61,728 bases of DNA from Mesobacillus persicus (GTDB lineage: Bacteria; Bacillota; Bacilli; Bacillales; Cytobacillaceae). The stretch covers positions 1 to 61,728 of the forward strand of contig NZ_FOBW01000020.1 in assembly GCF_900109925.1 (NCBI RefSeq), read 5' to 3'. Shown piece after piece: positions 5,435 through 24,496 of this stretch. Made by a program: the position numbers and the translations under genes. The stretch's first letter is position 1. Each line of letters begins with the position of its first letter. The notes beneath the pieces are model-generated. The model made no database searches. It had not been told where the DNA came from and saw only the letters and a program-made list of their open reading frames with translations.

Positions 5435-5589
5435 ATATCGTCGATCCCCTGTTCTTTCAGACCCTCTTTTATTTGATGATGAAGAATGTTTGAAACAACT
5501 TCCGCCCATTCTTTCTCAAAACCTGGGCGGTATACAAATTCAATCGATTCAACTGCGATCTCAGAAACCTGTTTTCTTTTTCTGCCCAT
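5431..5589 (-). CDS. Small basic leader protein of the recombinase operon, 52 aa
   Basis: A short gene beginning MGRKRKQVSEIAVESIEF and ending in GIDDI is preceded by GGAGGAAC at a good distance. Its TGA overlaps the ATG of the 509-aa recombinase. The basic N-terminus fits a nucleic-acid-binding accessory factor, for example a directionality factor, but I recognise no family. A decayed homologue sits at 8611-8769, which argues that the frame is genuinely coding. Confidence 0.6.
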   Translation of the reverse strand: MGRKRKQVSEIAVESIEFVYRPGFEKEWAEVVSNILHHQIKEGLKEQGIDDI

Positions 5590-5745: not shown

Positions 5746-5980
5746 TGTTCTAAAGGGTGTTCCACTATAGACCTCCCTGTCCCGCTTAATGATAAATATG
5801 CGGAATATAAGGATTTTTGAACTAGTTCTGTTTTCCAGGATAAGCTTAAAGCAGCATATAACTAGAACGGTTGATTCCGCGGCCCTTCCCATATTTGATT
5901 TATAGGTCATAAGGGTTTTATAAAAAGTTAACTATATGGATAAAATTTCTAACATGAGCAATAAAATTGGGGGGGATTCA

Positions 5981-8870: not shown

Positions 8871-9125
8871 TTTCTACTGAATACAATCAGCAGGTATGAT
8901 TTGCATTTATTCTAACTAGGCAAAACCTGTATGTATTTAAGTATTCGAACCAATACTCTCCGTCCTTATTAAACTGCTTTTTAACACCGGGCACCACATT
9001 CGCTTGTGATTACAGCCACAAGAATGTACCATCTCTGCCATCATTTTTACCAGCAGTTGCCCCGGAATTTACCATTCGCCGCCAAAGTGTTTACCAAAAG
9101 AAGTAGGTCAACGGTTTTGAAGTGA
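8871..9125. other. Gap without a recognisable gene
   Basis: No open frame of interest and no strong structure was seen between the duplicated recombinase upstream segment and the terminator at 9126. Confidence 0.4.
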
Positions 9126-9166
9126 AAAAGCCTAATCCTCCTTATCTTTACCGAGGAATTAGGCTT
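9126..9166 (-). terminator. Intrinsic terminator behind the DUF3231 gene pair
   Basis: AAAGCCTAAT and ATTAGGCTT arms, extended by CCTCC/GAGG, form a stem followed on the minus strand by CTTTTTC. It stands left of a TACTGCGCAGCAA repeat, as at three other places in the window, though here about 50 bp away instead of about 30. Confidence 0.7.
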
Positions 9167-9214
9167 AGGTCTTCCACAATCGGGCTAATTATGGGTTATC
9201 AATTTCTATTGAAT

Positions 9215-9275
9215 AGTATTCTTGTACTGCGCAGCAAAGATCCGGTTATAAATGACAGTCCTTGTTCAACTAAAG
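9215..9275. repeat. Cassette-end repeat, long form, copy A
   Basis: It contains AGTATTCTTGTACTGCGCAG followed by CAA, and more weakly the CTTGTTCAACTAAAGCA inner part. It aligns with copies at 11061, 17671 and 18471. No matching short-form partner was found to its right before 11 kb. Confidence 0.6.
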
Positions 9276-9303
9276 CAGATAGTTGAAGATTAGAAAAGTT
9301 TCT

Positions 9304-9774
9304 TTAAGCCTTGTAGATAATAACCAATTTATAAATAATAAACCCTATTAAAAGCCCAGGGACTAAAGAGAGTATAGGTAAAAAAACGGGACCAATTGTC
9401 ACTCCAAATATTTTTATTGAGGTTGAATATATTAAGCCTATTGTAATAAAGAAGGCTCCAAATACAAAAGGTATGTAGGAAAAGCAGTTCACTTTTCCAT
9501 CTGCATTACGGTATGCATCCCACATGGCAAACATATATAAACAAGGATAAAACATAAGCCATTGAAAGTTTGTAACGTCAATGGCTTTTTGTATTTCTCC
9601 TGTAAATGAATAAAGAATCGCTAAATTGAACTTGCTTAAAACATTAACAAGAATCTCCAAAAAAATGAACACGCATCCTTTAAATAAACTTCCATTTAGA
9701 AACTGACCGAACCCTGGTAGAGCTATACTCCATAATAAAGCCTCATGTTTTTTAGGCTTTCTAAAATCCTTCAC
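9304..9774 (-). CDS. Polytopic membrane protein, 156 aa
   Basis: The N-terminus KKHEALLWSIALPGFGQFLN resembles the TM2-like PGxGQFxNG motif found in small Firmicute membrane proteins. Four or more hydrophobic segments follow (about residues 10-30, 35-52, 70-90, 98-120 and 125-150). It uses a GTG start 11 bp after the DUF3231 gene and is cotranscribed with it. The function is unknown. Confidence 0.65.
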   Translation of the reverse strand: MKDFRKPKKHEALLWSIALPGFGQFLNGSLFKGCVFIFLEILVNVLSKFNLAILYSFTGEIQKAIDVTNFQWLMFYPCLYMFAMWDAYRNADGKVNCFSYIPFVFGAFFITIGLIYSTSIKIFGVTIGPVFLPILSLVPGLLIGFIIYKLVIIYKA

Positions 9775-9784
9775 CTTGTATCAC

Positions 9785-10792
9785 TCAATTCAACATTTGA
9801 TTGCGTTCTTCCATTTGAGGTGGTTCTTCCATCCAACCATTTTTAATCATTATTTTTGCACCTTTATGAGCATATTCAAATATATCTTTCATAAAAATAG
9901 TCATTTTAGCTGGTAAATCATTTCGTAAACTGAAGGCGGTACCTAATGAGCCACTTCCCATAGAAAAACTGCAAAAAAGACTTGTGCAATACATCATCAA
10001 TTTATCGGAAAATGGCGCTATTGTTGAACGGGTTGCATTACCACCTGATGTCTGCGGAGTTTGTATACCGCCTTGAAGAAAGGTTTCACTTAATTCCTTT
10101 ACAATACTTTTAGCAATCTCTGCTCCATCATTAAAGTAGCTTTTAACCTCTGCTTCATTTGCACATTGAGCAAAACCTATAATCATTTGAAGCCCAGAGA
10201 CATTTGATTCAATTGAATGATGAAGTTGAGCAACTTCCACTGTATTTAATGAACGTTTTTCGCTAAACGGATTTATGGAGAGTCCACCCAAGTAGCTGTT
10301 ATCTTTAACAAATTCAACTGACTTTGGCATTGAAACATGAGGAGATTTAACAAGCAACCCCTTTTCAAGCAAATATTGTGTACAAAGGTTGTAATACTTT
10401 TGAGTAATGGCAGTTAGATCTTTAAAAATCAGTACAATATCTTCTCGATAACTCATAGTTATATTTAACGAGTGAAGTCCCATACTAATTTCTTTCAATA
10501 GGCGAACAAACATGATGTCAAAACCATTATCATATAACTTTGGCACCTCTTTGTTAACATCTTGAGCAGTAAATCCAACTGGTATTACAGCCCCTTCATT
10601 TTGTAAAGTTTCTGTGATTTTACCAACATAGTTATCAATCTCCCCATATAAATTAGTCATAATCTCATTAGCCTTTTCATCATCGGCTTTCTCTATTAAG
10701 TATTCTAATATACGTAAAATCATTGTCTTTTCCTGATACGTAAGCCATAATACACCTAATTCAGATGAAGTAATTGCTGATTTTTCTGGCAT
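9785..10792 (-). CDS. DUF3231 family protein, 335 aa
   Basis: This is a soluble, largely helical protein of the DUF3231 family, found widely in spore-forming Bacillaceae and often in multiple copies. The duplicated-domain character is visible: two related helical halves, each starting with a long amphipathic segment, and the signatures LLEKGLLVKSPHVSMPKSVE and TIAPFSDKLMMYC. AGGAGG precedes the ATG. A broken paralogue lies at 15608-16105. The biochemical role of the family is not known. Confidence 0.8.
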   Translation of the reverse strand: MPEKSAITSSELGVLWLTYQEKTMILRILEYLIEKADDEKANEIMTNLYGEIDNYVGKITETLQNEGAVIPVGFTAQDVNKEVPKLYDNGFDIMFVRLLKEISMGLHSLNITMSYREDIVLIFKDLTAITQKYYNLCTQYLLEKGLLVKSPHVSMPKSVEFVKDNSYLGGLSINPFSEKRSLNTVEVAQLHHSIESNVSGLQMIIGFAQCANEAEVKSYFNDGAEIAKSIVKELSETFLQGGIQTPQTSGGNATRSTIAPFSDKLMMYCTSLFCSFSMGSGSLGTAFSLRNDLPAKMTIFMKDIFEYAHKGAKIMIKNGWMEEPPQMEERNQMLN

Positions 10793-10956
10793 ATATATAT
10801 CCTCCTAAAATTTACTCATTTTAGGTTTAGCATAAACTGGTATCTTAATTCGGTATTTTTTATAGTATTTCACTCATTGTTCATGGCAGGCACACAACTC
10901 GCGGATATGGTGTGATTATGGTTGCAGTGGATAATTGATAACTACCTCCCCTTCTA

Positions 10957-10990
10957 AGAGACAGGTCAAGTCTTTGATCTGTCTCTTCTT
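10957..10990 (+). terminator. Hairpin in the 10.8-11.2 kb intergenic region
   Basis: A 9-bp stem AAGAGACAG/CTGTCTCTT is followed on the plus strand by CTTGTTTTG. No plus-strand gene lies directly upstream, so its transcript is unknown. The rest of 10793-11016 holds nothing recognisable. Confidence 0.5.
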
Positions 10991-11016
10991 GTTTTGCACT
11001 ATCAGTAAAATAAAAA

Positions 11017-11127
11017 AGACGATCACTTTGAATGCAATCGTCTCTTAGATGGTTTATCTATTACAAGTATCTTTGTACTATACAGCAAATGTTTTTTTAG
11101 TTACTCTTGTTCAATATAAAGCACCCG
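11017..11127. repeat. Cassette-end repeat, long form with terminator, copy B
   Basis: A minus-strand terminator hairpin (AGACGAT/ATCGTCT, then TTTTTT) is followed by ACAAGTATCTTTGTACTATA, CAGCAA, AGTTACTCTTGTTCAATATA and AAGCACCC. The conserved core is slightly degenerate here (TACTATACAGCAA). Confidence 0.7.
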
Positions 11128-11198
11128 CTAAAGAATACATAAACAATAAATAGCCCATTATAACTGTGAAAAGGTATTTTTCGAGGAGATATAACATA

Positions 11199-11786
11199 AT
11201 GTCTTTAGTTAAAATAGTAACAACCTTAAAATTATTTTCGATAACTCCTAATTGGGATGAAATAATCAGACTACGTAGGCAAATTAGAGATCTGCTTATG
11301 GACTATTGGCTCACTAATAGTTTATTTTCTTTTAATTGGTGGCTACTTTTAACCACAACAATTATCTTTTTAATAATATGGCTCATCGTTCTTGATAAAA
11401 CAAGAATAATTGAAATTGCTTCGTTTGGTCTTTTGATAGGAACCACAGGTTTTATTTTAGATATTATCGGTATTGCATTAGTTTTATGGTCTTATCCTGA
11501 CAGCATAGTACCAGTGATACCTCCAATAATTGAAATTCATCATGTTCATTTGCCTATTTTTTATATGATAATTTATCAATTCTTTGATACTTGGCAATCA
11601 TTTTTAACAGCTATGATAATTACTTCATTTATTTTTTCTTTTGTTTTTGAACCATTGACGGAGTGGTTAGGTATTTACGAAGTATATAACTGGAAATACA
11701 TATATTCCTTCCCTATTTACATTTTTGGTGGCTGGATATTTAGGTGGACAATAATTAAGGTCAAACAAATCGAAAACAGAAGATAA
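11199..11786 (+). CDS. CBO0543-like membrane protein, 195 aa
   Basis: A polytopic protein with about five hydrophobic segments (residues 45-70, 78-105, 118-135, 140-160 and 170-188). Tryptophan- and proline-rich loops such as WSYPDSIVPVIPP and a C-terminal YEVYNWKYIYSFPIYIFGGW fit the CBO0543 family of Bacillaceae and clostridial membrane proteins of unknown role. GAGGAG lies 10 nt before the ATG at 11199; the frame extends 11 codons upstream without a better signal. It is the only gene in its repeat bracket. Confidence 0.65.
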   Translation: MSLVKIVTTLKLFSITPNWDEIIRLRRQIRDLLMDYWLTNSLFSFNWWLLLTTTIIFLIIWLIVLDKTRIIEIASFGLLIGTTGFILDIIGIALVLWSYPDSIVPVIPPIIEIHHVHLPIFYMIIYQFFDTWQSFLTAMIITSFIFSFVFEPLTEWLGIYEVYNWKYIYSFPIYIFGGWIFRWTIIKVKQIENRR

Positions 11787-11818
11787 AGCACTTCCTTTTA
11801 TTAGCGAGTGCTTTTTTT
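11785..11818 (+). terminator. Intrinsic terminator of the CBO0543-like gene
   Basis: AAAGCACT/AGTGCTTT stem with a 14-nt loop, followed by a run of T. Confidence 0.8.
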
Positions 11819-11836
11819 GCTCCTTTAGCTTGATTA

Positions 11837-11890
11837 CATTCACAAAGTTACCAAAAGTAAAAACATTTAGTGCGCAATATTTAGTCTACT
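11837..11890. repeat. Cassette-end repeat, short form, copy 1
   Basis: It reads ATTCACAAAGTT, then AAAAACATTTAGTGCGCAAT and ATTTAGTCTAC, aligning with the short-form copies at 16459, 18371 and 20466. In reverse complement its core corresponds to the TACTGCGCAGCAA core of the long form. Confidence 0.6.
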
Positions 11891-12181
11891 TCGCGGGAGG
11901 ACATAGGGACAGTTCACTGTCCCTGTTCCCACATATATAAATCCCTTACCATTCTCACTCGGTAACAGTTCGGGAAAAACGGGGACCCCAAAATTTCCAG
12001 CGGTCTTTTACGATTCACTCTATTCCTAGTTAATCCTCGCTTAGCTTCTTGGACCCATTTGGAACCTCTCTACATATTTTTCCTTTCCGAGTAATCGCTC
12101 TCCTTTGTGACAAGCCACTGTTGTGACTTGTCACAAAAATTATTTACTTAATGGTTTATCTAGTAATGATTTAAATCAAAA
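11891..12181. other. Gap with two palindromes, no gene
   Basis: GGGACAGttcaCTGTCCC (about 11904-11921) and a long stem TTTGTGACAAG/CTTGTCACAAA around 12110-12139 are visible. Neither has a clear U-tract. The second may mark the end of the nrdDG transcript. Confidence 0.4.
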
Positions 12182-12670
12182 TTACTTCTGATAACTTGTT
12201 TTACGTAACCCGTTATCTAATTCTATTATTTCTTGATTACTACTCCCTCTAAATTGAAGCGATAAATCACGTTTATCTATTTCAAATCGCCCATCAACAA
12301 TTACATCAATGTAAGTAAGTAGTTCTAGTTTATCTTCATCTTTACTAGCCTGTAATTCCTCTAACGTCCAACCTGTATATGCCCATATATTTTTACCATG
12401 TTCTTTTAAATCTCTAGCTACTTGTTTAACAACAGGAGCTTGATAGAAAGGATCTCCACCACTGAGAGTAATATCTGTAATAGGGTTTAGTGCTTCCTTC
12501 ACTATTTCTTTGACTGTCATTTCGGTCCCATTTTGTATATTCCACGATTTAGGATTATGGCATCCTTTGCAGAAGTGCTCACAACCAGCAAAAAATATAA
12601 CCGTTCTAACCCCCTCCCCATCTACTACGGAATCATGGTAGATGGAAAGCACTTTTGCAGTATCGGTCAC
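12182..12670 (-). CDS. nrdG: Anaerobic ribonucleoside-triphosphate reductase activating protein
   Basis: This radical-SAM activase uses S-adenosylmethionine and a [4Fe-4S] cluster to install the glycyl radical in NrdD. The cluster motif is FFAGCEHFCKGCHNPKSW (CxxxCxxC, about residues 29-36), and TLSGGDPFYQAP is the glycine-rich SAM-binding segment. Length (162 aa) is normal. Its start overlaps the nrdD stop by 4 bp (translational coupling). Confidence 0.95.
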   Translation of the reverse strand: MTDTAKVLSIYHDSVVDGEGVRTVIFFAGCEHFCKGCHNPKSWNIQNGTEMTVKEIVKEALNPITDITLSGGDPFYQAPVVKQVARDLKEHGKNIWAYTGWTLEELQASKDEDKLELLTYIDVIVDGRFEIDKRDLSLQFRGSSNQEIIELDNGLRKTSYQK

Positions 12671-14550
12671 GAGTGTTTCACCCGGTCTTCTTCCTCACTC
12701 GCTTTTGCGGTGTTCCATTGTTTCATTGTTCCTACCAAATATCCAGTTATTCGTCTAATGCGGTCAATTTTCTCTTCATTATCATTCCCACATTTAGGAC
12801 ATTCATTGTCAATGACCCCTGTATAGTTACATTGGTGGCATCGATCTACAGGATGATTTATACTTCCGTACCCTATGCCATTATCAGCCATAGCTTTTAC
12901 AATTCTATCCATAGCCTTAATGTTTTTGCATACATCTCCATCGACTTCGATATAACTAATGTGTCCAGCGTTTGTATACTTGTGAAATACTCCTTCTTTT
13001 TTGATTTTATCAATGACGCGGATGTTATAGTAAACAGGAACGTGAAATGAGTTTGTATAATAATTACGACTTGTTATTCCATCTATCTCACCGAATTCTT
13101 TTTTGTCTTGTTTAACGAAGTGCCCGCTTAGACCTTCTGCTGGTGTTGCGATTAGTGAATAGTTTAAATCATACACTTCTGCAGCTTCATCACATTTTTG
13201 GCGTAGAAAAGAAACAATTTCTTCGCCAAATTTTTGAGCCTCATCGCATTCACCATGATGTTTACCAGTTAATGCCTTCAAACACTCAGCTAGCCCAATA
13301 AATCCAATACTCAAACTACCTTGTTTTAGAATTTTGCCTACTGTATCGTTCGGACCTAATTGTTCACTATTCTTCCACACCCCTTGTCCATATAAGAAAG
13401 AGAAATCTTTAGCTGATTTTTCTGATTGGAAGCACATTCTGTCGTACAATTGTCTAATAACAACATTAGTGTACTTTTCGAGTGTTTTATAGAATTCGGA
13501 AACAGAATTTGAGATTAATGCAATTTTCACTAAGTTAAGGCTGGTAAAAGATAAATTCCCTCTTTCTATACTGGTTTGTTCTCCATGTCGATTGGCCATA
13601 ATCCTTGTACGACAACCCATATAAGCGACTTCTGTATCAGGTTCTCCTTCTCTGTAAAACTCGTAATTAAATGGTGCATCAATGAAACTGAAATTAGGGA
13701 ATAATCTCTTTGCGGTTGTTTCTAGACCTAATTGATATAAGTCGTAGTTTGGATCCGCTTCATAAAAATTGAAACCCTTTTTCATTTTAAAAATTTGGAT
13801 TGGGAAGATTGGTGTTTCTCCGTTACCTAAACCCTTCTTTGTAGCTAGCAAGATGTTTTTAATAATCATCCGACCTTCTTTACTGGTATCTGTTCCGTAA
13901 TTGATGGATGTGAATGGAACCTGCCCACCAGACCGTGAATGCATAGTATTTAAATTATGGATAAATGCCTCGCTCGCTTGATAGCATTGCTTGTCAGTTT
14001 CATCCCATGCTATCTCTTTCATTCTTTCTTCACTAATCGGTAGGTCGTATGACTTTAGTGTATCTAGTTCCTTTTCAAATGTTTTATTTACATAAGGTGC
14101 TAAATCAAAATCAAAAGCTTGGAAACTTTGACCTCCATGTTGTTGATTTTGGTTACTTTGAAAGATAATAGCCGCTAACGCCATAGCACTACTGATGGTT
14201 TTGGGTTCACGCATGTATCCGTGTCCTGTATTAAACCCATTTTTTAATATTTTCCCTAATGGTATCTGAGCACATGTGGTTGTTCCTGTGGCCATAAAAT
14301 CAAGGTCATGAATGTGGATAAAATTATCATCCATAGCTTCTAGAGCTTCATTTGAAAGTAGATATTCTTTTGCATAAGCTTTTGCACTTTCGCTTGCGAA
14401 TTTATTCATTTGTCCTAATGGAGAACGTCCATCTACATTTGCGTTTTCTAGTGTTAAATCTTGGTTGGAGTTTGAAACAATTTCGTGAAAAGAAGAGAAT
14501 AAAGTTTGGGAGGGATTCTCTCTTTTCTTTTCTAAGTGTTGAGTTGTCAT
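12667..14550 (-). CDS. nrdD: Anaerobic (class III) ribonucleoside-triphosphate reductase
   Basis: The catalytic subunit reduces ribonucleoside triphosphates to deoxy forms without oxygen. The C-terminus carries the zinc site (CHQCNYTG and CPKCGND) and the glycyl-radical loop RRITGYLVGT. The body has NrdD signatures such as TGTTTCAQIPLGK and HGGQSFQAFDFDLAPY. The ATG at 14550 follows AAGGGTGA and matches the usual N-terminus; a start 13 codons upstream has no better support. Expression is predicted to be controlled by NrdR and by a cobalamin riboswitch in the leader. Confidence 0.95.
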   Translation of the reverse strand: MTTQHLEKKRENPSQTLFSSFHEIVSNSNQDLTLENANVDGRSPLGQMNKFASESAKAYAKEYLLSNEALEAMDDNFIHIHDLDFMATGTTTCAQIPLGKILKNGFNTGHGYMREPKTISSAMALAAIIFQSNQNQQHGGQSFQAFDFDLAPYVNKTFEKELDTLKSYDLPISEERMKEIAWDETDKQCYQASEAFIHNLNTMHSRSGGQVPFTSINYGTDTSKEGRMIIKNILLATKKGLGNGETPIFPIQIFKMKKGFNFYEADPNYDLYQLGLETTAKRLFPNFSFIDAPFNYEFYREGEPDTEVAYMGCRTRIMANRHGEQTSIERGNLSFTSLNLVKIALISNSVSEFYKTLEKYTNVVIRQLYDRMCFQSEKSAKDFSFLYGQGVWKNSEQLGPNDTVGKILKQGSLSIGFIGLAECLKALTGKHHGECDEAQKFGEEIVSFLRQKCDEAAEVYDLNYSLIATPAEGLSGHFVKQDKKEFGEIDGITSRNYYTNSFHVPVYYNIRVIDKIKKEGVFHKYTNAGHISYIEVDGDVCKNIKAMDRIVKAMADNGIGYGSINHPVDRCHQCNYTGVIDNECPKCGNDNEEKIDRIRRITGYLVGTMKQWNTAKASEEEDRVKHS

Positions 14551-14620
14551 AAAAATCACCCTTCTTTTTGGTATTGGATTGACATTCATCTAATGCATTA
14601 CAATCAGAATTTCCAGGGAA

Positions 14621-14649
14621 TTAAAAATCCACTCATTAACTGAGTGGAT
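14621..14649 (-). terminator. Riboswitch expression-platform terminator of nrdDG
   Basis: A perfect 9-bp stem ATCCACTCA/TGAGTGGAT with a 5-nt loop is followed on the minus strand by TTTTTAA. It lies between the cobalamin aptamer and nrdD. A second hairpin (AAAAGGTA/TACCTTTT, about 14663-14684) lies between the two and may take part in switching. Confidence 0.8.
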
Positions 14650-14730
14650 GAATGAACAACTTAAAAAGGTACACAAATACCTTTTACGGCCATCGATTCA
14701 CCTTCCCAACTCCCGAGGAATTTGAAATAC

Positions 14731-14843
14731 TTCATAATGAGACAGGTATCTGACTTATGCTTATTAAGCAATTACAGTTGCGGGTACAGTTCCGGACTCT
14801 AACCGGATTCCCTTAAAAGCCAATCGGCATCTCATTATAAGGC
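14731..14843 (-). promoter_or_regulatory. Cobalamin riboswitch
   Basis: The minus-strand RNA contains the cobalamin-aptamer hallmarks in order: AAGGGAATCCGGT, AGTCCGGAACTGTACCCGC, AACTGTAA, and AAGTCAGATACCTG (B12-box region). The outer P1 helix pairs ATAATGAGA with TCTCATTAT. It precedes an intrinsic terminator and nrdD, so cobalamin binding should lower expression of nrdDG. Confidence 0.92.
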
Positions 14844-14846
14844 TAA

Positions 14847-14894
14847 ACACAATATGTAGTTGTCCTCCGATATTCAACACACAATATACAGAAC
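14847..14894 (-). promoter_or_regulatory. Tandem NrdR boxes
   Basis: Two sites, ACACAATATGTAGT (from 14847) and ACACAATATACAGA (from 14879), match the NrdR consensus and start 32 bp apart, the three-turn spacing typical of NrdR operators. They lie just upstream of the riboswitch, where the promoter of the leader is expected. Confidence 0.8.
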
Positions 14895-15207
14895 GATTTA
14901 ATAGTACATGTAATTAGTAGTAATATCAATTACTATTCATGTGGCGATTTTATGAACATAATTCATGTAAAGCATGACCAGAATTAAAAAAGTCATTAAA
15001 ATTACGTAACATAAAACCAAAAATCTTTGCTGTTTCATTCACCCTCTATTATTAAAAGAGGTGTTTTTGCAACTCTCCAGATTATAACTTTATTCTACTT
15101 TGGAAACCCTTCTTCCATAAAAGTGCCTGTTAACTCCATAAGGAATTTAACAAAAGCCCGTTAATCCTTACTGAATCAAACACACTTAAATAAGGAAATC
15201 CTTAAAA
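14895..15207. other. Intergenic region with one plus-strand hairpin
   Basis: No gene is seen. A TTGATA/TATTAA-like promoter for the nrd leader is possible on the minus strand near 14905-14935. A hairpin CACCCTCT...AGAGGTG followed by TTTTT (15040-15068) looks like a plus-strand terminator, but no plus-strand gene precedes it. Confidence 0.4.
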
Positions 15208-15405
15208 CTAATCATATCGTTTTGGTTTAAAATTTTTGACAATTATTCTTGTCAAGATAACCGATATTAAAATAGGAGATGTAGTAATTGCATTCTTAAG
15301 ATATTCATTTAGAGATGGATTAAAATACCAAAGTAACGCTTCAATTAATAGTGCAGAAACTGCATAAATTGTTAATGCTAATATTATCTGTTTACCTATC
15401 CCCAT
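15208..15405 (-). CDS. Small membrane protein, 65 aa
   Basis: Two hydrophobic helices (about residues 5-28 and 38-55) are separated by a short polar loop, with a basic C-terminus KNFKPKRYD. GGGGAGGCAAT precedes the ATG. No family is recognised. Confidence 0.55.
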   Translation of the reverse strand: MGIGKQIILALTIYAVSALLIEALLWYFNPSLNEYLKNAITTSPILISVILTRIIVKNFKPKRYD

Positions 15406-15607
15406 ATTGCCTCCCCATTTGAGCAGTAAAGTTTCAACTTTATTAGTTGTATCAAATCTTTAGTAAATGCTTATTCATACACAGATAGGTAAGGGTCTGA
15501 AGTTATCGGTCCCTTTTCCCCCTGTTCACACCGTACATAAAAATTTCGAATCTACGGAGTTCCAACTAATCCAATTCATTCTTTACTTGTTCACAATATG
15601 ACAAAGC

Positions 15608-16105
15608 ATGGCTCGAACGGAAGTGTTGGATCTCTTTTCAAATACGATTGACCTTACACGACAGTTATATAACAAATCGTTAAATGTATTATTAGAAAAA
15701 GGGTTATATTCAAGAGCTGCTTCTATTCCGATACCAAAGAAAGTTGATTTAATAGAAAAACAAGGGTATTTAACTGGTTGGTGTGGGGAGCGCCGCCCAA
15801 TAAATGCAATTGAAATTATGCACTTTTATAAAAATATGAAACGAAATGCTATTGGTAAATCGTTATTGCTAGGTTTTGGACAAACTGCTGGTTAACAAGA
15901 GGTGCGGAATTATATGGCTAGAGGATCTCAAATAGCGAGTAAAGTCGTGGAGTTTATGCCTCACATTTTATCAGAAGAAAACATTTCTGAAACACCAACT
16001 ATGGATTCCGAGATTCTCAAAACAACAACAGCCCCTTTTTCGGAAAAGCTAATGATGCAGGTGTCACAAATTGTTCACAATCAATTCTTCATCCATTACC
16101 ATTAA
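15608..16105 (+). pseudogene. DUF3231 family pseudogene
   Basis: The frame aligns with the intact DUF3231 protein at 9785-10792: LLEKGLYSRAASIPIPKKVD matches LLEKGLLVKSPHVSMPKSVE, and TAPFSEKLMM matches IAPFSDKLMM. It is broken by an in-frame TAA at 15893-15895, replacing a Glu codon of the intact copy. The N-terminal half is missing and the C-terminus is truncated after LMM. It is oriented opposite to the intact copy. Confidence 0.8.
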
Positions 16106-16157
16106 GTTGGTAAAATTGACTTTGCGTTTGTATTTTAATGCAAGGGGAAGAGTAATT

Positions 16158-16331
16158 ATGGAAACAACCCTACCATCTGTTTTAAATCCAAATGAACTCC
16201 TTAGTTATATCGAATTTTTGAGAAAAGACCTTATTAACAAAGGTTTACATTTCGGATTTAATGACGAACGAACAATACAGGCTAGTCAGGAACTAGATTA
16301 CTTTATATTTGAGTACCAAAGAATAACTTAG
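16158..16331 (+). CDS. Spo0E-family aspartyl-phosphate phosphatase, 57 aa
   Basis: Small Spo0E-like proteins dephosphorylate Spo0A-phosphate and delay sporulation. The family signature is complete: two helices, LLSYIEFLRKDLINKG and TIQASQELDYFIFEYQ, the latter with the catalytic SQELD motif. GGGGAAG precedes the ATG at 16158. The frame can be read 29 codons further upstream, but that part overlaps the DUF3231 remnant. Confidence 0.85.
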   Translation: METTLPSVLNPNELLSYIEFLRKDLINKGLHFGFNDERTIQASQELDYFIFEYQRIT

Positions 16332-16458
16332 TATTGCCACTAATCTTTTTAGGAATAATGATCAAATGGGAAATCACTGCCAATTTCATTTAACAGCAAA
16401 AAAGCCAACGAAATATCAGGTTGATCTTGCGGGAAAGCCTCCGTTCGCTTAAGTACAT

Positions 16459-16515
16459 CATTCCACAAACTCACCTAAAAATAAGGCTATTGTTACGCAG
16501 TATTAAGTCAAATAG
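16459..16515. repeat. Cassette-end repeat, short form, copy 2
   Basis: It contains TTCCACAAAC, CTAAAAATAAGGCTATTGTT and ACGCAGTATTAAGTCAAAT. It lies 33 bp beyond the end of the tyrosine recombinase gene. No long-form partner was found to its left before copy B at 11 kb. Confidence 0.55.
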
Positions 16516-16547
16516 ACAGCAACTTACTGAATCAAATACTTTTTATG

Positions 16548-17522
16548 CTACTCTCGCTTTCGCTCATGAGTAATTTTTGCATACCTAAGTGTCGTATCTG
16601 GTGAACTATGTCCTAAGAGCTCTTGAATAGCAACCAATTCAGCACCATTATTTAATGTTAAAGTAGCAAAGGTATGTCTTAAAACATGGGGACTTACTTT
16701 GTCTTGTAATCCTGCCCTTTGAGCGATTATTCCTATTTCTCTTTGTATTCCTCGTTTAGATAATCTTCTAAAAGGTTTTCTCTCTGTAATCATCAAGGCT
16801 TCACAATTGTCATTTCTTCCTTTTAAATATTTATCCAAATGATACATTGCTCTAATCGAAAAATAGACTTCCCTTTGTTTATCACCTTTACCTATAACTA
16901 ATGTGCTCATATTCTGTTGATTGATATCAGCTTTTTCTAATCCATGAACTTCAGATAATCGACAGCCCGTTGCATACAATACTTCTAGAAAAGCACGCTG
17001 TCTTACTGTATCACAGGATTCTCTTAACATTTCTAGTTCTTCGATTGATAAGGATTTAGGAAGTCGGTATTCATCTTTTGGAGCTTTTAATTTATTAGTT
17101 GGATCACGTTTAATATATTCTTCTGAAACTAACCAACTAAAAAAACTTTTTATAATCGATAATTTCTTTCTAATTGTGCTCATTTTTAAGGACCCATCTT
17201 GACTTAAGTACATTCGAACATCTGCTGCAGCTATGTCCTCAGCCTACTTTTTTACGATATCAGCAAACACATTTAATTCCATGAGGTAGTTGTCTAGAGT
17301 AATAGAACTTAAACCTTCTAGTTTTTTTGCCGAGATGAACAATAGTATTTTATCCTCAAGATCAGGATGTACTTCACCTAACTCAACTCTGTGAATATAA
17401 TACTCTGATAGAACAGTAGATAATTTATTCTTTGTATTTTCCACTTCAATATTAGGATACAAATCTTTTAAAGCAGCCACTAAAGCTGATAATACTTGTT
17501 CTCCTAGATTCATAATAATCAA
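16548..17522 (-). pseudogene. Tyrosine recombinase/integrase interrupted by one in-frame stop
   Basis: Read through one TAG (17244-17246), the frame encodes a 324-codon XerC/D-like integrase. The N-terminal core-binding domain contains LEGLSSITLDNYLMELNVFA. The catalytic domain has all expected residues: Arg in GCRLSEVHG, the beta-hairpin Lys in GKGDKQREV, HVLRHTFAT, LGHSSPDTTLRY and its Tyr. The stop falls at the domain boundary (IVKK*AEDIAAADVRMYL). A downstream ATG (17213) could yield only the catalytic part, so activity is doubtful unless the stop is read through or is a sequencing error. Confidence 0.85.
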
Positions 17523-17623
17523 CTCTCCTTAGTTCATATTAGTAACTAAGGATTACCTATTCAAACAGCAAAAATACCAACTGAGTGAGTATGGACCGCT
17601 TTTTTGATCCTTTGAATAAGAAA

Positions 17624-17735
17624 GAGACGATTACTTTTGGGGTAATCGTCTCATAATGGTTGTGTATAGCTAGTATCTTTGCACTGCGCAGTAATTGACT
17701 TGTTTTGTTAGTTGTTCTTCTCAAAATACGCTCAC
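17624..17735. repeat. Cassette-end repeat, long form with terminator, copy C
   Basis: A hairpin GAGACGATTAC/GTAATCGTCTC with a minus-strand T-rich tail is followed by AGTATCTTTGCACTGCGCAG, TAA and then TTAGTTGTTCTTCTCAAAAT. Spacing between hairpin and core matches copies B and D. Confidence 0.75.
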
Positions 17736-17803
17736 ATTACTTGAATAACAAAAAACAATTATCCTCTTTAATCACTCTCCCTAGTTGAGAAATAATATAG
17801 CAT

Positions 17804-18250
17804 TTATTTAATTCTTTTTATTAACAACTGATATCCATAAATAACTAGAGCGAAAGTAATAAATGAAAAAAATATGTGTTTAGGCCTAAAGTTAACTAGT
17901 TTAAAAAGTCTTAACTTTTGAAATAGATAGCTCAGTGGGAAAGAAAAAAGAATATCCATTATTAGGTTAAGACCTAAATACCGTTTTAAATTTCCAAAGG
18001 TTAAATGAAAAATCCATAATGTTCCTACAAGAAAAGGTCCCAAAATAAAGCTACCATCGTTTAATAGTTTAACTTTCCATCCCCCTTTAACAACCCACCA
18101 CTTATATGGGACTGCCAACAAACACATTCCTGTTACAAGAAGTGATGCAAAAAGAGAAACGGGTAAATAAAGTTTAAATGACTTTTTAGGAAGAAAAATG
18201 ATAGAAATCCAAGGCAATATAAGCTGAATGATTCTAATGATATTAGGCAT
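17804..18250 (-). CDS. Polytopic membrane protein, 148 aa
   Basis: There are four hydrophobic segments (about residues 5-20, 28-45, 68-88 and 95-140) and a WW pair in YKWWVVKGGW. AGGGGGAATC precedes the ATG. It is similar in character to small Bacillaceae membrane proteins of the CBO0543 type, but I cannot place it firmly. It is the only gene in its repeat bracket and reads toward the long-form repeat and its terminator. Confidence 0.6.
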   Translation of the reverse strand: MPNIIRIIQLILPWISIIFLPKKSFKLYLPVSLFASLLVTGMCLLAVPYKWWVVKGGWKVKLLNDGSFILGPFLVGTLWIFHLTFGNLKRYLGLNLIMDILFSFPLSYLFQKLRLFKLVNFRPKHIFFSFITFALVIYGYQLLIKRIK

Positions 18251-18370
18251 ATAAATTGATTCCCCCTTTTCATCTTAATTTCCCCTCTTATTTGGGAATA
18301 ATTCACAGGGAAATCACTAATTATGTGTTTCTTATTGAACCATACTGCCCGGTTCAGCTTATATACATTT

Positions 18371-18422
18371 ATTCACAAGTGCTTTAAAATGAAGAACTTT
18401 GCTGCGCAGTATAAGTCCAATA
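18371..18422. repeat. Cassette-end repeat, short form, copy 3
   Basis: It contains ATTCACAAGTGC, TTTAAAATGAAGAACTTTGC and TGCGCAGTATAAGTCCAATA. It gives the clearest inverted match (TTGCTGCGCAGTA) to the long-form core TACTGCGCAGCAA. Confidence 0.7.
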
Positions 18423-18431
18423 CGAAAAAAA

Positions 18432-18545
18432 GATCACCCTAAAAGAGTGATCGCCTGACATGATTTTTTAATTACAAGTATGGTTGTACTGCTCAGCAAC
18501 TGACATTGTATTGCTAGTTGTTCTTCTTCAAAATAAGCCCCCATT
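18432..18545. repeat. Cassette-end repeat, long form with terminator, copy D
   Basis: A GATCAC/GTGATC hairpin with TTTTTTT on the minus strand is followed by ATTACAAGTATGGTTGTACT, GCTCAGCAA, and then AGTTGTTCTTCTTCAAAATA and AGCCCCC. It serves as the terminator of the reverse transcriptase gene. Confidence 0.75.
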
Positions 18546-18680
18546 TGTATGAAAAAGAGATTCAAAAATGCAATAATATTTACTATCTTTTTATAAAGGG
18601 AAGAAGCTCAAGGAAGCCATATGCTTATCAATACACTTGCATACTCTAAAAGACCATGCTTTTGTCATTGATTAAACCAC

Positions 18681-20246
18681 TTATATATCCATATCTTCAG
18701 CTTCAAAGCCGTCTTCCATTTCCTTTATTTTCAATGCTAAATACTCTTCAATTTCATTAAGAACCTCTGGAATATCTCTAATGATGGGAAGCTCTGATGT
18801 TATGTTTGCTCTATAAAACTCCAAATAACTGCTCACTTTTTCCATACGTGATTGCTCTTTTCTTACCTCGAATACCTTTTTGGGAATTAGATATTTTACA
18901 ATGCTACCTTCTAAATCAGCTTTTAAGTCAGCAGAATACAGTATCAGGTGATAATTTTGAAACCAGTATTGTTCACCATCATTTTCTTTTAATTTATCCA
19001 ATTCTTCTTTTTCAAAATACCCATCTTTTAGGTAATACGAAATTAATACTTGATTGCTTGTTTCCATTACTCTATTTTTATTTTCAATCAATACATCTGT
19101 AAAATCAAATATTTTTATTGCGTAATAAAAATACAACTGCTCTTCATTAAATGAAGTTTTAAGCACTTCTCTATACCTAACATGGAAAAATTTATGTAAT
19201 CTATTTTTGTCAAAATTACTCATATCATTAAATTTATCGACTGTATACAACATAGTCTCAGGAGATAAGTTAAATAGAAAACATAATTGGTGATAATCAT
19301 AATTCTTAACTTGATAACTCTCTAGGTCTAACTCTCTAAAATATTTCGTCTTAAAAAAATTATTTATAAAAACCTTCTTAAGTTTATCATCTTCTAAGTT
19401 TGAGACTCTAAAAACAAGTTGGTTAATAAAATATAGCTTGTTATTATCTTTTTCCTTATCGAATCTTACATTACAATGGGCAATTAATTTTTTCCAATAT
19501 CTCGCAACTAAATTGTAATTATTGAAAGTTTCATATGTCCAAACCTCTTTTTTGCTATCATTTCTTTCTAATTCATATTTTTCCAACACCTTATCAAAAA
19601 TCCTTGTTATTTCAACAACATCATCCTTATTACAGAAAAAGTAAAAGTCATCGGAAAAATAGGAAAACTCGCAGTCAATCTTTGCTCTTCTAATTTCTCC
19701 TGCTATTTCATTACTGATATTTTTTAAGTTACTTTCTGCGAAATATAATGACAAATAATTTCCCATTATTAATCCATTTGTTTTTCCCTGATTCATATTG
19801 GATAAAAATCGTTCTTCATGTTCTTCGTAGTCTATTAAATGAGTATAGATCCTCCCGTAGTATTCCTTTATATCCATTTTAATAAGTTGATCATAAACGC
19901 ATAACCTGTTAAAATCCTCCTCTAATTGCCTTTCGTATTCACCTGATACAAAATCCCCAGTATCAATATTTGCTGATAAGCGTTTATGTAGTGGATCTAA
20001 ATTTTGAATGCTATCAAAATTTGATAAATCCTTAAAATGTTCATATGCAACTATAAAATTCAAAATATTTGGCATTTTAAGGGTTCGATACTTATCTTCT
20101 TGCTTTTTAACTCTAAAATTAATAGGTTCAACCCAGACCAACTTACTAATATCAAATGAGGATATATCAGTTGGGAATTTAAGAATATCAATGTCCAGAA
20201 AATGCTTGACTGAATTCTTGAAATTGTACAAATTATTAAGTTTCAT
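18681..20246 (-). CDS. Defence-type reverse transcriptase (DRT/Abi-like), 521 aa
   Basis: An RT palm is recognisable near the N-terminus. Motif A is IKMDIKEYYGRIYTHLI with its Asp at about residue 125, the next motif is NGLIMGNYLSLYFAES, and the catalytic motif is YFSDDFYFF (SDD at about 198-200). The C-terminal 300 residues are helical with no recognised domain, as in Abi and defence-associated RTs, which act by protein-primed or untemplated DNA synthesis in phage-infected cells. No maturase/HNH domain is present, so this is not a group II intron protein. The ATG at 20246 follows AAGGTGG. The exact DRT/UG subtype cannot be assigned here. It is the sole gene of its repeat bracket and lies 0.7 kb from a Kiwa pair. 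Confidence 0.75.
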   Translation of the reverse strand: MKLNNLYNFKNSVKHFLDIDILKFPTDISSFDISKLVWVEPINFRVKKQEDKYRTLKMPNILNFIVAYEHFKDLSNFDSIQNLDPLHKRLSANIDTGDFVSGEYERQLEEDFNRLCVYDQLIKMDIKEYYGRIYTHLIDYEEHEERFLSNMNQGKTNGLIMGNYLSLYFAESNLKNISNEIAGEIRRAKIDCEFSYFSDDFYFFCNKDDVVEITRIFDKVLEKYELERNDSKKEVWTYETFNNYNLVARYWKKLIAHCNVRFDKEKDNNKLYFINQLVFRVSNLEDDKLKKVFINNFFKTKYFRELDLESYQVKNYDYHQLCFLFNLSPETMLYTVDKFNDMSNFDKNRLHKFFHVRYREVLKTSFNEEQLYFYYAIKIFDFTDVLIENKNRVMETSNQVLISYYLKDGYFEKEELDKLKENDGEQYWFQNYHLILYSADLKADLEGSIVKYLIPKKVFEVRKEQSRMEKVSSYLEFYRANITSELPIIRDIPEVLNEIEEYLALKIKEMEDGFEAEDMDI

Positions 20247-20465
20247 CTTCTCCACCTTGTTTCACTTATTAGTTTTTCTAACTTAAACTTTGCTCTCTAG
20301 CAATTCATTTCCATTTGTAAAAAATATCCAATTTTATTAAAAAATCTTTTAAACACATTCTACACTTACCTTTGAACCATCATAGTGTAAAATATTAATG
20401 CTTTTTATTTACATCTATATATTACCATTAAATTGCAATTAGTTTTGAAGAGCTCTGCTTGTTAG

Positions 20466-20520
20466 TTCACACAAAACCAACTAAAATGAAGAAAATTATT
20501 ACGCAGTATAGGTCTACTAC
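20466..20520. repeat. Cassette-end repeat, short form, copy 4
   Basis: It contains GTTCACACAAAACC, then AAAATGAAGAAAATTATTAC and GCAGTATAGGTCTACTAC. It closes the reverse transcriptase bracket. Confidence 0.6.
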
Positions 20521-20869
20521 ACAATACATTATTTAGTCTTGCCCGTTTGTAAACAGTCTGTAATTCTTTGGTACACTTTTTGTCATTCGGTGGTAAATGC
20601 TATGTCAGAGCTGGTACAAACATTTTAATTACTTGTAATCAAAATTCATTTAATCGTAGTTTGGCTATGCCTTTTACCTCTTCCTTCACTTTGTAGTTTC
20701 AAGCACCACTGTCGTAAAGCCTGTGCTTTTGCGACTTGGTTTTGTCCCAACCTTTATTAACAATTCCTATAAGGTGATGAATACACCAAATCCAGCAAAC
20801 GAACATGTCTTGAATATTCATAGGTATTAACCCTTTCATTTCTACATATGTCTCCTATTTTACAACATA
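20521..20869. other. Gap between the reverse transcriptase and Kiwa modules
   Basis: No firm gene is seen. A 46-codon minus-strand frame (20699-20839) starts MKGLIPMNIQDMFVCWIWCI behind an AGGAGAC and contains HHLIGIVNKGWDKTK. It might be a remnant of a larger gene but is unrecognised. Confidence 0.3.
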
Positions 20870-20951: not shown

Positions 20952-21581
20952 TTATAGATATAAGTCATCTGAACGACTTGTTTGTAGAGGTACTTCGGTT
21001 ATAACATATATATCTCCTATAAGATTAACTTTTTTTACCTCAAGGTTTCTCTTTGCTATCTTTTTTAATTTAGTTTTACTAATTCTAGTTATATAAATAT
21101 ATTCTTCTGCAGAAAAAACATTATAACCACAAATATTATATAACGGATTCATAAATAACTGATCATTCTTTACATAAAAAGTTCCAATGATAAAAAATAA
21201 TATAAAGTTTATTAGTAAACTTCTCCCGCTATGTATATCCATTGATATTAGTGGAACAATATACGTTACAATATACCCCATTGTATCCTCTCTAACAAAT
21301 TCAGTATCCTTTATTGTACCTATTCTTCCCTCTGTTTTTGTATATACACGAAAAAACAAAAATACACCGAACAATGACAATATAAAAAAAATCAATAAAC
21401 CTATCCAAAATATAGACACAGAAGTGCTTATATTAAGAAATTGATTAAAAAAACATTTAAGGGTAAGAAGACGGCCATTGTCATCAAAAAGCTGTATATT
21501 TTGTACTATGAGCAACAAATATAAGGGGATAAAAGATGATAAATAAAAGAGAATTTTTTGTAACGATCTAGTGAATTTCAT
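20952..21581 (-). CDS. kwaA: Kiwa-like membrane protein KwaA, 209 aa
   Basis: Four hydrophobic segments (about residues 9-28, 53-76, 103-118 and 121-138) sit in the N-terminal two thirds, starting with ILFYLSSFIPLYLLLIVQN, followed by a cytoplasmic beta-rich tail. This architecture matches KwaA, the four-helix membrane sensor of the Kiwa anti-phage system. Assignment is strengthened by the DUF4868 (KwaB) gene ending 20 bp upstream. In the original Escherichia coli system kwaA comes first; here the order is B then A. Confidence 0.7.
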   Translation of the reverse strand: MKFTRSLQKILFYLSSFIPLYLLLIVQNIQLFDDNGRLLTLKCFFNQFLNISTSVSIFWIGLLIFFILSLFGVFLFFRVYTKTEGRIGTIKDTEFVREDTMGYIVTYIVPLISMDIHSGRSLLINFILFFIIGTFYVKNDQLFMNPLYNICGYNVFSAEEYIYITRISKTKLKKIAKRNLEVKKVNLIGDIYVITEVPLQTSRSDDLYL

Positions 21582-21601
21582 ATATATTCCCTTCTTTAGA
21601 T

Positions 21602-22522
21602 TTATTGCGTAACATCCTCACCTATACGACCTAAAATTAATGATAAATAATATGCATCTGCAATACAGAAAAGTATTTGACTTCTAACTTGTCTATTTCT
21701 TGTATATACAATTTGACCGTGTTGATTTAATTCAATATCTAAATCTGCTTCAGCAATCACATTGGGAAGTAAATTACGATTTTGTATAAACCCTTCAATT
21801 CTCCCAGGAGTGTTTAAAATCTTAGTGATTCTCTTAGATGCTTGTCTATCATTTAAACAATCATCTCTAAATTCATCAAAGTTAGTTATAATATTACCTT
21901 CCTCAATATGGCTTAGGGCTTCTGTTGCTCTTTCTGAAAAATAATCCTGTAAATTGAAAATTGTTTGTAATGCAAATCGATTGATTATTAACATTTCATT
22001 TTGAAATACTAATATATCTATATCTCTATCCAAACCAATAAAAAGTTCGTTATCAAACTTCCTTAAAGTATTATCTTCTAAAATACCCAAGATTCCACTT
22101 CGAATTTTTTTCATTTTTGTAAACCTGCGAAATATATACATGGATTCATCATTAGTATTAGTAAATTTAATGCAGTAAAAATTTATATCATTAAGATCCA
22201 TTTCGCCCATATCACCATGTATATTTTCTTCTGAATCTATTTCCACTATGGTATTAGCCACACGTGCTACATCTAGAGTTGCCACAGATAGATACCCATC
22301 TTGGCCTACATTAGGGTTGTAAATCTCTTGCGGTAAATCGTACAATCTTGTTTGGAAAACCTCATTATATAGATCTTTTAAATCTTGACGCATTTGTGGC
22401 CTTATAGTAGGTTGGTAAACTTCATAGGCTTCCATTATCTTTTGGACAAATTTAACTGATACAGCATTCGGTTGATTAATGTCAAGATTATTCACAAATT
22501 GTCTAAGGTAATTAATATTCAA
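21602..22522 (-). CDS. kwaB: Kiwa-like protein KwaB (DUF4868), 306 aa
   Basis: The central and C-terminal parts fit DUF4868: INFYCIKFTNTNDES, FRRFTKMKKI, then FDNELFIGLDRDIDILVFQN and LIINRFALQTIFNLQDYF. KwaB is the cytoplasmic partner that binds phage-related DNA and works with KwaA. The frame is open to a GTG at 22627, but the best signal is GAGGGATAACA before a TTG at 22522, giving 306 aa, close to the usual KwaB length. The extra 35 N-terminal codons are hydrophobic and basic and lack a good ribosome binding site. Confidence 0.75.
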   Translation of the reverse strand: MNINYLRQFVNNLDINQPNAVSVKFVQKIMEAYEVYQPTIRPQMRQDLKDLYNEVFQTRLYDLPQEIYNPNVGQDGYLSVATLDVARVANTIVEIDSEENIHGDMGEMDLNDINFYCIKFTNTNDESMYIFRRFTKMKKIRSGILGILEDNTLRKFDNELFIGLDRDIDILVFQNEMLIINRFALQTIFNLQDYFSERATEALSHIEEGNIITNFDEFRDDCLNDRQASKRITKILNTPGRIEGFIQNRNLLPNVIAEADLDIELNQHGQIVYTRNRQVRSQILFCIADAYYLSLILGRIGEDVTQ

Positions 22523-22740
22523 TGTTATCCCTCTTCTCGATAAAATTATAATAACAAAATTCGACAAGAAAGACGGAATACCTCTCAACCAACCGCATAT
22601 TTTTCCAATTCTCCTAAATAAACCCACGCCTTGATGCTTATTCCTCTAAGTTAAAACTCTCTTTGCATCCATTTACAACCTATATTTCTTTATTTAGATT
22701 TTTGCATATTTGGGAGGGGACGGAGACCTTTTCCCTATAC

Positions 22741-22818: not shown

Positions 22819-22996
22819 GATTAGTAAAGGTGCCACCATTTACTTTAGCCAGCAACAGACCGCCAATCCAATCCATTCCTTGGATAGCTATATTAATGCT
22901 TTCCAGGGAGAGTTTCAATTGAGGGGAGTGGCGGGGATGATTGGCGCATGTTCGTGGCTCTTCTATGTTCAATACCCAACACACCTTTACAGCCAT
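22811..22996 (-). CDS. Small protein of the recombinase operon, 61 aa
   Basis: The ATG overlaps the last codons of the serine recombinase gene, so it could be translationally coupled. The sequence (start MAVKVCWVLNIEEPRTCANH, end AKVNGGTFTNRN) is not recognised. Such small genes behind large serine recombinases sometimes encode accessory factors, but nothing in the sequence proves this. Confidence 0.35.
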   Translation of the reverse strand: MAVKVCWVLNIEEPRTCANHPRHSPQLKLSLESINIAIQGMDWIGGLLLAKVNGGTFTNRN

Positions 22997-24462: not shown

Positions 24463-24496
24463 GTTTAAGATCACTCCTATGTTTTACAAAATTCCA

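Follow-up and report, generated by a model that had tools for sequence, protein, structure and literature searches.

The question raised by a contig of Mesobacillus persicus (NZ_FOBW01000020.1; positions 1 to 61,728 are called here the window) is why single genes in it stand between inverted repeats next to a tyrosine recombinase gene. In a preliminary description made from the letters alone, four long and four short repeats, designated below as L and S sites, were explained either as ends of cassettes mobilised in trans or as the work of a recombinase. Both alternatives fit when they are taken as two layers: judging from sequence comparison, the repeats resemble sites at which DNA is cut and joined in a gene-swapping system of spore-forming bacteria, a system that would be situated inside a jumping element. 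Two-layer gene exchange, in which an IS21-like transposon would provide the platform and L/S core sites of a tyrosine recombinase would swap the cargo, is considered probable.

L and S Sites of the Window

Profile hidden Markov models (HMMs) of L and S were iterated from recombinase loci in searches of 41 genomes and of 193 genomes of the family, and as they were iterated on the same loci their E-values are optimistic. With models rebuilt without rows of the own genome (56 L and 31 S rows, initially gathered with window-seeded models) the 61.7 kb of the window were found to contain precisely four sites of each type: L matches at 9213, 11066, 17671, and 18477 (E 6.5e-9 to 6.6e-6) and S matches at 11842, 16465, 18377, and 20472 (E 9e-10 to 1.2e-6), the next ones being L/S cross-matches or chance matches with E of at least 9e-4. 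With the full models the true sites scored 23–39 bits versus 12.1 bits as the top score among 200 dinucleotide-shuffled versions of the region 8.9–20.8 kb. The eight repeats of the preliminary description, all of which were recovered by the models free of the own genome, are confirmed as genuine at approximately their original positions.

L and S represent two versions of one core, in which inverted arms flank a spacer of 6-7 bp; tyrosine recombinase sites have this arm-spacer-arm structure. In array direction (plus strand of the window) both cores read arm-AGTA, spacer, TACT-arm. In L a platform arm ending in GAATAGTA is followed by the spacer NNNTTG and the cassette arm TACTGCGCAGCAA, and in S the cassette arm TTGCTGCGCAGTA is followed by the spacer NNNGTC and the platform arm TACTACGTAAT, so that the cargo-facing arm is alike in both sites (TTGCTGCGCAGTA and TACTGCGCAGCAA) and the outward arms are platform arms. 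The short repeats had been described as carrying the core of the long ones in inverted form, which holds for the cassette-facing arm and not for the outer arms and spacers. An interpretation of both forms as inverted copies of one terminal inverted repeat was rejected, as that arm is their only common part.

The last three letters of the spacer segregate by side. All 57 L matches end in TTG, and of the 36 matches of the S model 32 carry GAC (GTC in array direction), three are variants, and one is a misassigned L site, where both models include the spacer. The GAC-type spacers are 6 bp long in 20 sites, 7 bp in 11, and 5 bp in one. A scan with the arms only returned 65 TTG, 17 GAC, and 25 other spacers, some of them by chance.

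Probable Exchange of Cassettes between Platforms

Comparison points to the L-gene-S segment as the unit exchanged between platforms, with the crossover at or beside the border between AGTA and the spacer, since the same cassette is found beside unrelated flanks and the same platform is found with different cargo. The first situation is illustrated by a cassette with an AraC regulator and a membrane protein, which is common to genomes of two genera (G003 and G161) with 92.9% identity over 2130 alignment columns; the homology stops at AGTA/spacer at one end of the cassette and at CGCAGTA at the opposite end, beyond which the flanks and the hairpin sequences differ. The hairpin that stands left of L was considered as a part of the cassette and rejected, because it differs on the two compared sides of one common cassette; it stays with the platform, outside the exchanged unit. 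Further common cassettes were found in G098 and G157 (L134), in L127 compared with L111 and L120, in L173 and L179 of Aquibacillus, and in L177 and G178, and a duplication within L175 provides another cassette with a break at the core.

In nine of ten common-cassette pairs, hand-picked for matching cassette ends and including two with near-identical partners, the best ungapped break lies from -11 to +2 of the TACT arm. The ungapped test fails in the tenth pair because of an indel; in three of the nine, indels reduce the ungapped identity inside to 0.54–0.71, and there the break is revealed by gapped alignments. When sites were compared pairwise at score thresholds set by the analyst, the outside was common in 411 of 1830 L-site pairs, the inside in 9, and both in 5, and among 741 S-site pairs the corresponding numbers were 84, 2, and 0.

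The second situation is found in G161 and G183, which are two species of one genus: the left flank (1.16 kb), the left end, and the L core are alike and the cargo differs. Similarly, two contigs of G179 have the flank and the left end in common and contain different cargo.

Within arrays a short linker, designated as M and carrying a hairpin of variable sequence, stands between successive cassettes. Of thirteen S-to-L linkers compiled, most are 65–79 bp long, three are longer owing to a misplaced border, and those of L193 and L194 consist of direct arm-arm joints. The joint in L194 of Metabacillus litoralis (about 11091–11166) is a near-perfect palindrome of two cassette arms (TTACTGCACAGTA, 6 bp, TACTGTGCAGTAA), which resembles the predicted circle or a cassette-cassette joint.

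A joined, cargo-free platform was used as a query in the 193 genomes, with the best three candidates per genome scored. Left- or right-half matches were obtained in 58 of them at E ≤ 1e-15, and where a right-half match extended across the junction, it terminated in a cassette arm. The query served as a test of whether single cassettes are freely excised, and on re-check of the fetched loci only one place, contig C8 of G155, resembled a decayed empty platform.

The IS21-Family-Like Carrier

Beyond L and S on either side are inverted ends, each about 92 bp long, which start with TGATTAC and contain repeated motifs. The same ends bound istA/istB-like pairs of open reading frames (ORFs) in G074 and G121, on which ground the carriers are regarded as IS21-family-like; the two long ORFs between such ends in G074 (L137) matched IstB_IS21 (1.7e-56) and Mu-transpos_C_2 (3.7e-20), and in L138 an istA/istB-like pair was recognized by eye. 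In the window the left terminal region was found at 9007–9097 (plus strand; profile of the ends 8e-24) and the right one, inverted to it, at 20547–20641 (minus strand; profile 5e-12 and alignment). No istA/istB-like ORF was seen by eye from 9007 to 20641, and as its anatomy shows the carrier of the window is IS21-family-like and non-autonomous.

Short target duplications were also found: with offsets of up to 2 bp allowed, duplications of at least 5 bp accompany 10 of 16 end pairs versus 2.9% of mismatched pairs. The carrier of G123 (L106) splits a peptidase-like gene with a 7-bp duplication. Its joined flanks matched seven other genomes of 61 searched, and all seven span the junction without interruption, which provides, for this one carrier, the empty site by which the cassette idea of the preliminary description was to be judged.

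The Tyrosine Recombinase

Between S and L in the middle of the array lies the gene of a tyrosine recombinase (16548–17522, minus strand; Pfam PF00589, 3.2e-33), which is split by an in-frame stop into ORFs 16548–17213 and 17244–17522 and therefore would need help in trans today. It encodes a phage-integrase domain, of which the catalytic residues R, K, HxxR, H, and Y are present in the intact protein of G178 (by eye). NCBIfam models of XerC, XerD, and XerA match below their cut-offs, the XerA/“integron integrase” model with 216.3 of 220, while the integron integrase models TIGR02249 and NF011946 reached 88.4 of 265 and 51.6 of 435 bits, respectively, and the best solved relative is XerD. These model scores place the recombinase with Xer-like enzymes and not with IntI.

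A scan of named genomes returned 24 recombinase loci, and the search of the 193 family genomes gave 15 matches at E ≤ 1e-60. After L194, a weak match of 88 residues, had been left out, L or S was found to adjoin the recombinase in 15 of 16 loci with at least 75% identity versus 0 of 7 with at most 66% (Fisher 3e-5), three of the former and two of the latter loci originating from one genome each. In the eight loci with both sites adjacent, S lies at the 3′ end of the gene and L at the 5′ end. In Halalkalibacter alkalisediminis three recombinase loci of one genome (L174, L182, and L186) have adjacent sites, and in the G161 array (L051/L052) an istA/istB-like pair was seen by eye inside the recombinase gene. 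The relation between repeats and recombinase, which had been called positional only, has become a clade-wide association, though one that is still read from sequence.

In the phylogenetic tree 17 of 18 array rows form one clade with 100/100 support and short branches, which spans Mesobacillus, Neobacillus, Aquibacillus, Oceanobacillus, Gracilibacillus, Halalkalibacter, and others. Because of their short length L190 and L193 were left out of the tree, and the remaining row, L182, a broken gene of which the longest match was used, has a long branch outside the clade and is taken for an artefact. Outside the clade stand relatives from viral contigs (58–70% identity in the viral_contigs collection) and from prophage-like loci, and several of the divergent recombinases (53–69% identity) have phage-like neighbours as judged by eye. 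At the divergent loci no L or S site was found by the profiles below E 0.1, the arm-arm pattern had no match in viral_contigs, and the phages and plasmids collections contained only recombinase relatives below 60% identity.

The Array of the Window

The array starts with the platform hairpin of copy A (9128–9166; minus-strand terminator-like, from sequence reading and alignments), followed by site L-A (9209–9237, plus strand; arm TTGAATAGTA, spacer TTCTTG, arm TACTGCGCAGCAA; predicted crossover after 9218) and by cargo A (9304–10792, minus strand), which consists of a 156-aa membrane protein and a DUF3231 protein. The profile search found no S match between this copy and copy B. Next come the hairpin left of L-B (11017–11043; sequence reading and alignment), site L-B (11060–11088, plus strand, by profile; crossover after 11069), cargo B, a membrane protein of the CBO0543 family (11166–11786, plus strand; NCBIfam NF041644, 1.1e-14), and site S-B (11841–11893, minus strand; crossover after 11879), whose right arm is of the platform type (GTCTACTTCG).

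The site S-X (16464–16514, minus strand, by profile; crossover after 16502), the short repeat noted at 16459, directly follows the end of the recombinase gene, which gives the order S, recombinase, hairpin, L, and this position recurs in other arrays. On the other side of the gene there are a hairpin (17624–17652; sequence reading and alignment), site L-C (17666–17694, plus strand, by profile; crossover after 17675), cargo C, a 148-aa membrane-type protein from the ORF list (17804–18250, minus strand), and site S-C (18377–18424, minus strand, by profile; crossover after 18411). The module M with its hairpin (18412–18480), recognized by comparison with S-M-L linkers elsewhere, connects this cassette with the last one, made up of site L-D (18471–18499, plus strand, by profile; crossover after 18480), cargo D, a UG31-type defence reverse transcriptase (18681–20255, minus strand; PADLOC RT_UG31, 7.5e-99), and site S-D (20470–20520, minus strand, by profile; crossover after 20508).

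Two traits of this layout were seen correctly from the letters alone. Each L site has a hairpin on its left, the end of which precedes the predicted crossover by 23–28 bp in copies B to D and by about 51 bp in copy A, and each of three L..S intervals encloses one ORF of at least 70 aa, namely, the CBO0543 protein, the 148-aa protein, and the reverse transcriptase. The gap of about 10 bp given between the two end-to-end brackets had to be corrected, since it was measured to the hairpin; the distance between the two crossovers (18411 and 18480) is 69 bp.

Proposed Mechanism and Points That Weigh against It

In the first layer of the proposed scheme, which the anatomy shows, a non-autonomous IS21-family-like transposon carries, in order, the left end, hairpin, L, cargo, S, and right end; in the second layer L and S would be the core sites of a tyrosine recombinase that bound an exchangeable cassette. 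L spacers (NNNTTG) would pair mainly with L and S spacers (NNNGTC) with S, and consequently L x L together with S x S recombination would swap the cargo and leave the slot occupied, which fits the absence of complete empty platforms. Between tandem cassettes L x L or S x S recombination would free a circle of one cassette and one linker M, able to enter another array, and excision by L x S would be rare. The catalyst may be, or may have been, the Xer-like recombinase that stands between S and L, a relative of phage-borne enzymes.

This scheme may correspond to natural recombinase-mediated cassette exchange (RMCE) of a kind undescribed before, in a Gram-positive host, with poorly compatible sites, a transposon slot that is nearly always filled, and a phage-related Xer-like enzyme, by which accessory genes, including those of anti-phage defence, would be swapped between slots, genomes, and genera. 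Such a reading is offered tentatively: its probability is put slightly below even because of the candidate empty platform in G155.

Several observations weigh against the scheme. The array-type recombinase is absent from 93 of the 100 L-bearing family genomes, of which two have remnants (5′ parts of the gene in G157 and G197, found with a 60-bp query); in these genomes another enzyme may act, or the sites may be relics. Recombinase copies of the window, G161, G098, and G003 carry in-frame stops, and L180, one of the 16 high-identity loci, has no adjacent site. The right flanks of G161 and G183 differ, though their right ends are alike. Among cassette-bearing end pairs a duplication of at least 5 bp occurs in 5 of 9 with offsets and in 2 of 9 without them, and the window's own end pair has none. 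Relatives of the window's UG31-type reverse transcriptase in L051 and L133 lie in a common segment of 96.8% identity whose ends are not L/S cores. This segment occupies about 11811–13629 in G161 and 5693–7518 in L133, and both of its G161 ends carry CGCCCGATTGTTG beside hairpins; perhaps it belongs to another repeat-based system.

The strict spacer rule and the filled slot meet difficulties too. Three linker-free joints with cassette arms on both sides were found (C21 of the own genome, L193, and L115), with the spacer GTC in one and TTG in two. The first of them, which has GTC, belongs to a second L/S place of M. persicus around small genes, at about 188–190 kb of contig C21 (L040, 8.2–10.3 kb). 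No complete cassette-free platform was found in the 193 genomes with the joined-platform query, which would fit immobility as well as exchange. Finally, contig C8 of G155 (L101, about 16820–16880) contains a decayed candidate empty platform, in which the left platform end and the L spacer TCGTTG are joined to a platform-type right arm; on its right side about 50 bp resemble other right sides (score 22 versus 15 for the best of 100 shuffles), and no right end was found for its left-half match. Together with the arm-arm joints, which occur with both spacer types, this candidate shows that the rule is leaky or has at times been broken.

Alternative Explanations

It is unlikely that the sites are genuine recombinase sites on which host XerC/XerD or some other unrelated recombinase acts, as with the dif modules of Acinetobacter. 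The L-bearing genomes without the array recombinase and the Xer-like 6-bp spacer would agree with it, and dif modules can be moved by host XerCD according to the excerpts consulted of PMC13141974. It is opposed by the dedicated recombinase clade within arrays and, weakly, by the cassette arms, which do not look like the arms of Bacillus subtilis dif; a dif pattern that is only approximate as a query had no match in the own genome within 3 mismatches.

According to another explanation, which is very unlikely, only mobile insertion cassettes of the IS21 type are present, with L and S as inner parts of the transposon ends and cargo acquired by ordinary transposition. IS21-like ends, target duplications, the empty insertion site, and again the many genomes with sites and no recombinase speak for it; common cassettes whose outer surroundings differ and whose homology breaks off at the core, S-M-L linkers that join cassettes without an intervening IS21 end, and the arm-spacer-arm form of sites with a recombinase between them speak against it. 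Equally, the genes could have been shuffled by homologous recombination between repeats with the recombinase as a bystander, as the repeats are common to many loci and many genomes contain several L matches. This appears quite improbable, given that the conserved tract per core is short and yet the breaks of the selected pairs fall at the core, that the spacer triplet segregates by side, and that sites are present at 15 of 16 recombinase loci. A true integron (IntI with attC) in a Gram-positive host, brought to mind by an array of varied genes beside a tyrosine recombinase, by the likeness of gene and M linker to gene and attC, and by the XerA/“integron integrase” score just under cut-off, was rejected as most improbable, since the enzyme fails the IntI models by far, has XerD as its best solved relative, and is accompanied by sites that bound both sides of a gene as inverted arms.

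Distribution and Cargo

Returning to two-layer exchange by L/S sites on an IS21-like platform, its distribution is wide. The L model matched 100 of the 193 family genomes at E ≤ 0.01, and L sites were found in 7 of 7 genomes with the array recombinase versus 93 of 186 others; the own genome has 11 L-model matches at E ≤ 0.05, at least one of which is an S cross-match. The 44 L..S intervals, in which sites up to E 0.1 were used and long ones may hide undetected sites, have a median length of 1.85 kb, and their ORFs (chosen greedily and not gene calls) point toward L in 75 cases versus 27 toward S. The cassette count omits L178 and L181, which are the same contigs as G128 and G003, as well as L190, a presumed copy of G028 that is perhaps an independent genome; G014 and L171, which represent one contig, were both kept, and neither yielded a counted cassette.

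Among the cargo proteins, which were chosen for scanning by the analyst, defence-type ones include the UG31 reverse transcriptase, Drt9, DarT, a HerA-type ATPase (HerA), PDC-M09, an OLD/Gabija-like protein with a GajA/OLD-like match, and a NucC-like protein. The other cargo comprises AraC, a beta-lactamase-fold protein, DNA alkylation repair, VanZ, a cation exchanger, LysE, isochorismatase, and DUF3231. Several of the scanned proteins had no family match, including the 148-aa protein of cargo C, relatives of which occur in L104 and L174 at 33% and 29% identity, and the gene pair of cargo A was also found after an L site in L103.

Genomic Surroundings

The window looks like a defence island. 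Genes of KwaA and KwaB (Kiwa) lie just right of the carrier (20952–22627, minus strand), and a type IV methyl-directed restriction-like protein is encoded left of it (5936–7483, plus strand). The region is flanked by ORFs of the serine recombinase type, at 3905–5509 (minus strand, by eye) and at 22987–24474 (minus strand; XisF/CcrB models below cut-off), and this pair possibly marks the boundary of a larger island. Between the carrier ends, a cobalamin riboswitch (14724–14849, minus strand, 65 bits), the only match to Rfam at gathering scores in the region 8.9–21.0 kb, lies upstream of an apparent anaerobic ribonucleotide reductase pair (12182–14589, minus strand; nrdD/nrdG by eye).

Relation to Known Systems and Significance

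The carriers resemble the IS21 family in their ends, which measure about 92 bp and contain repeated motifs from TGATTAC, in their short target duplications, and in having istA/istB relatives, and differ from it by holding recombinase sites and cargo where istA/istB would stand. In the Bacillus cereus group, mobile insertion cassettes (MICs) likewise consist of transposon ends around cargo without a transposase; they are bounded by ends of the IS4 family (IS231-like) and are not known to have recombinase core sites. In laboratory RMCE with mismatched lox or FRT two incompatible sites flank a cassette and exchange keeps the locus occupied, and the system described here would be a natural example of it.

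With integrons (IntI, attI, and attC) the system has in common an array of accessory genes beside a tyrosine recombinase, whose cassettes are exchangeable as judged by genome comparison, and integron arrays can also ride transposons and site clusters without an integrase occur; it differs by a recombinase that fails the IntI models, by double-arm cores that flank the gene left and right, and by cargo ORFs that mostly point toward L. The dif/pdif modules of Acinetobacter (XerC/XerD), as far as the excerpts consulted describe them, are the other relative, genes being placed there as here between inversely arranged tyrosine recombinase sites with arm-6 bp-arm structure. Unlike them, the present system has a dedicated, phage-related recombinase inside some arrays, IS21-like carrier ends, the hairpin linker M, and Bacillaceae hosts, and its arms are unlike the pdif arms in the printed portion consulted of PMC13141974. 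The L/S system appears to work like dif modules and integrons, and it fails, or leaves open, features that define each of them.

In the portions consulted of the open-licence PMC literature searched, no earlier description of an L/S cassette system was found, and no paper on dif modules in Firmicutes with Xer was found in this literature either. One complete integron in Firmicutes is given in the consulted part of the IntegronFinder 2.0 survey, and because integrons are rare there, the shuffling of single genes in Firmicutes is little known. The L/S system is a widespread candidate for it, with L matches in 100 of 193 genomes of one family, and the core-site profiles allow cassettes, and hence uncharacterised accessory genes, to be listed by position. 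In addition, the L/S sites suggest a natural version of cassette exchange between heterospecific sites. If this is true, the Bacillaceae would have in this system their own counterpart to mobile integrons, one with another enzyme, other sites, and another logic of exchange.

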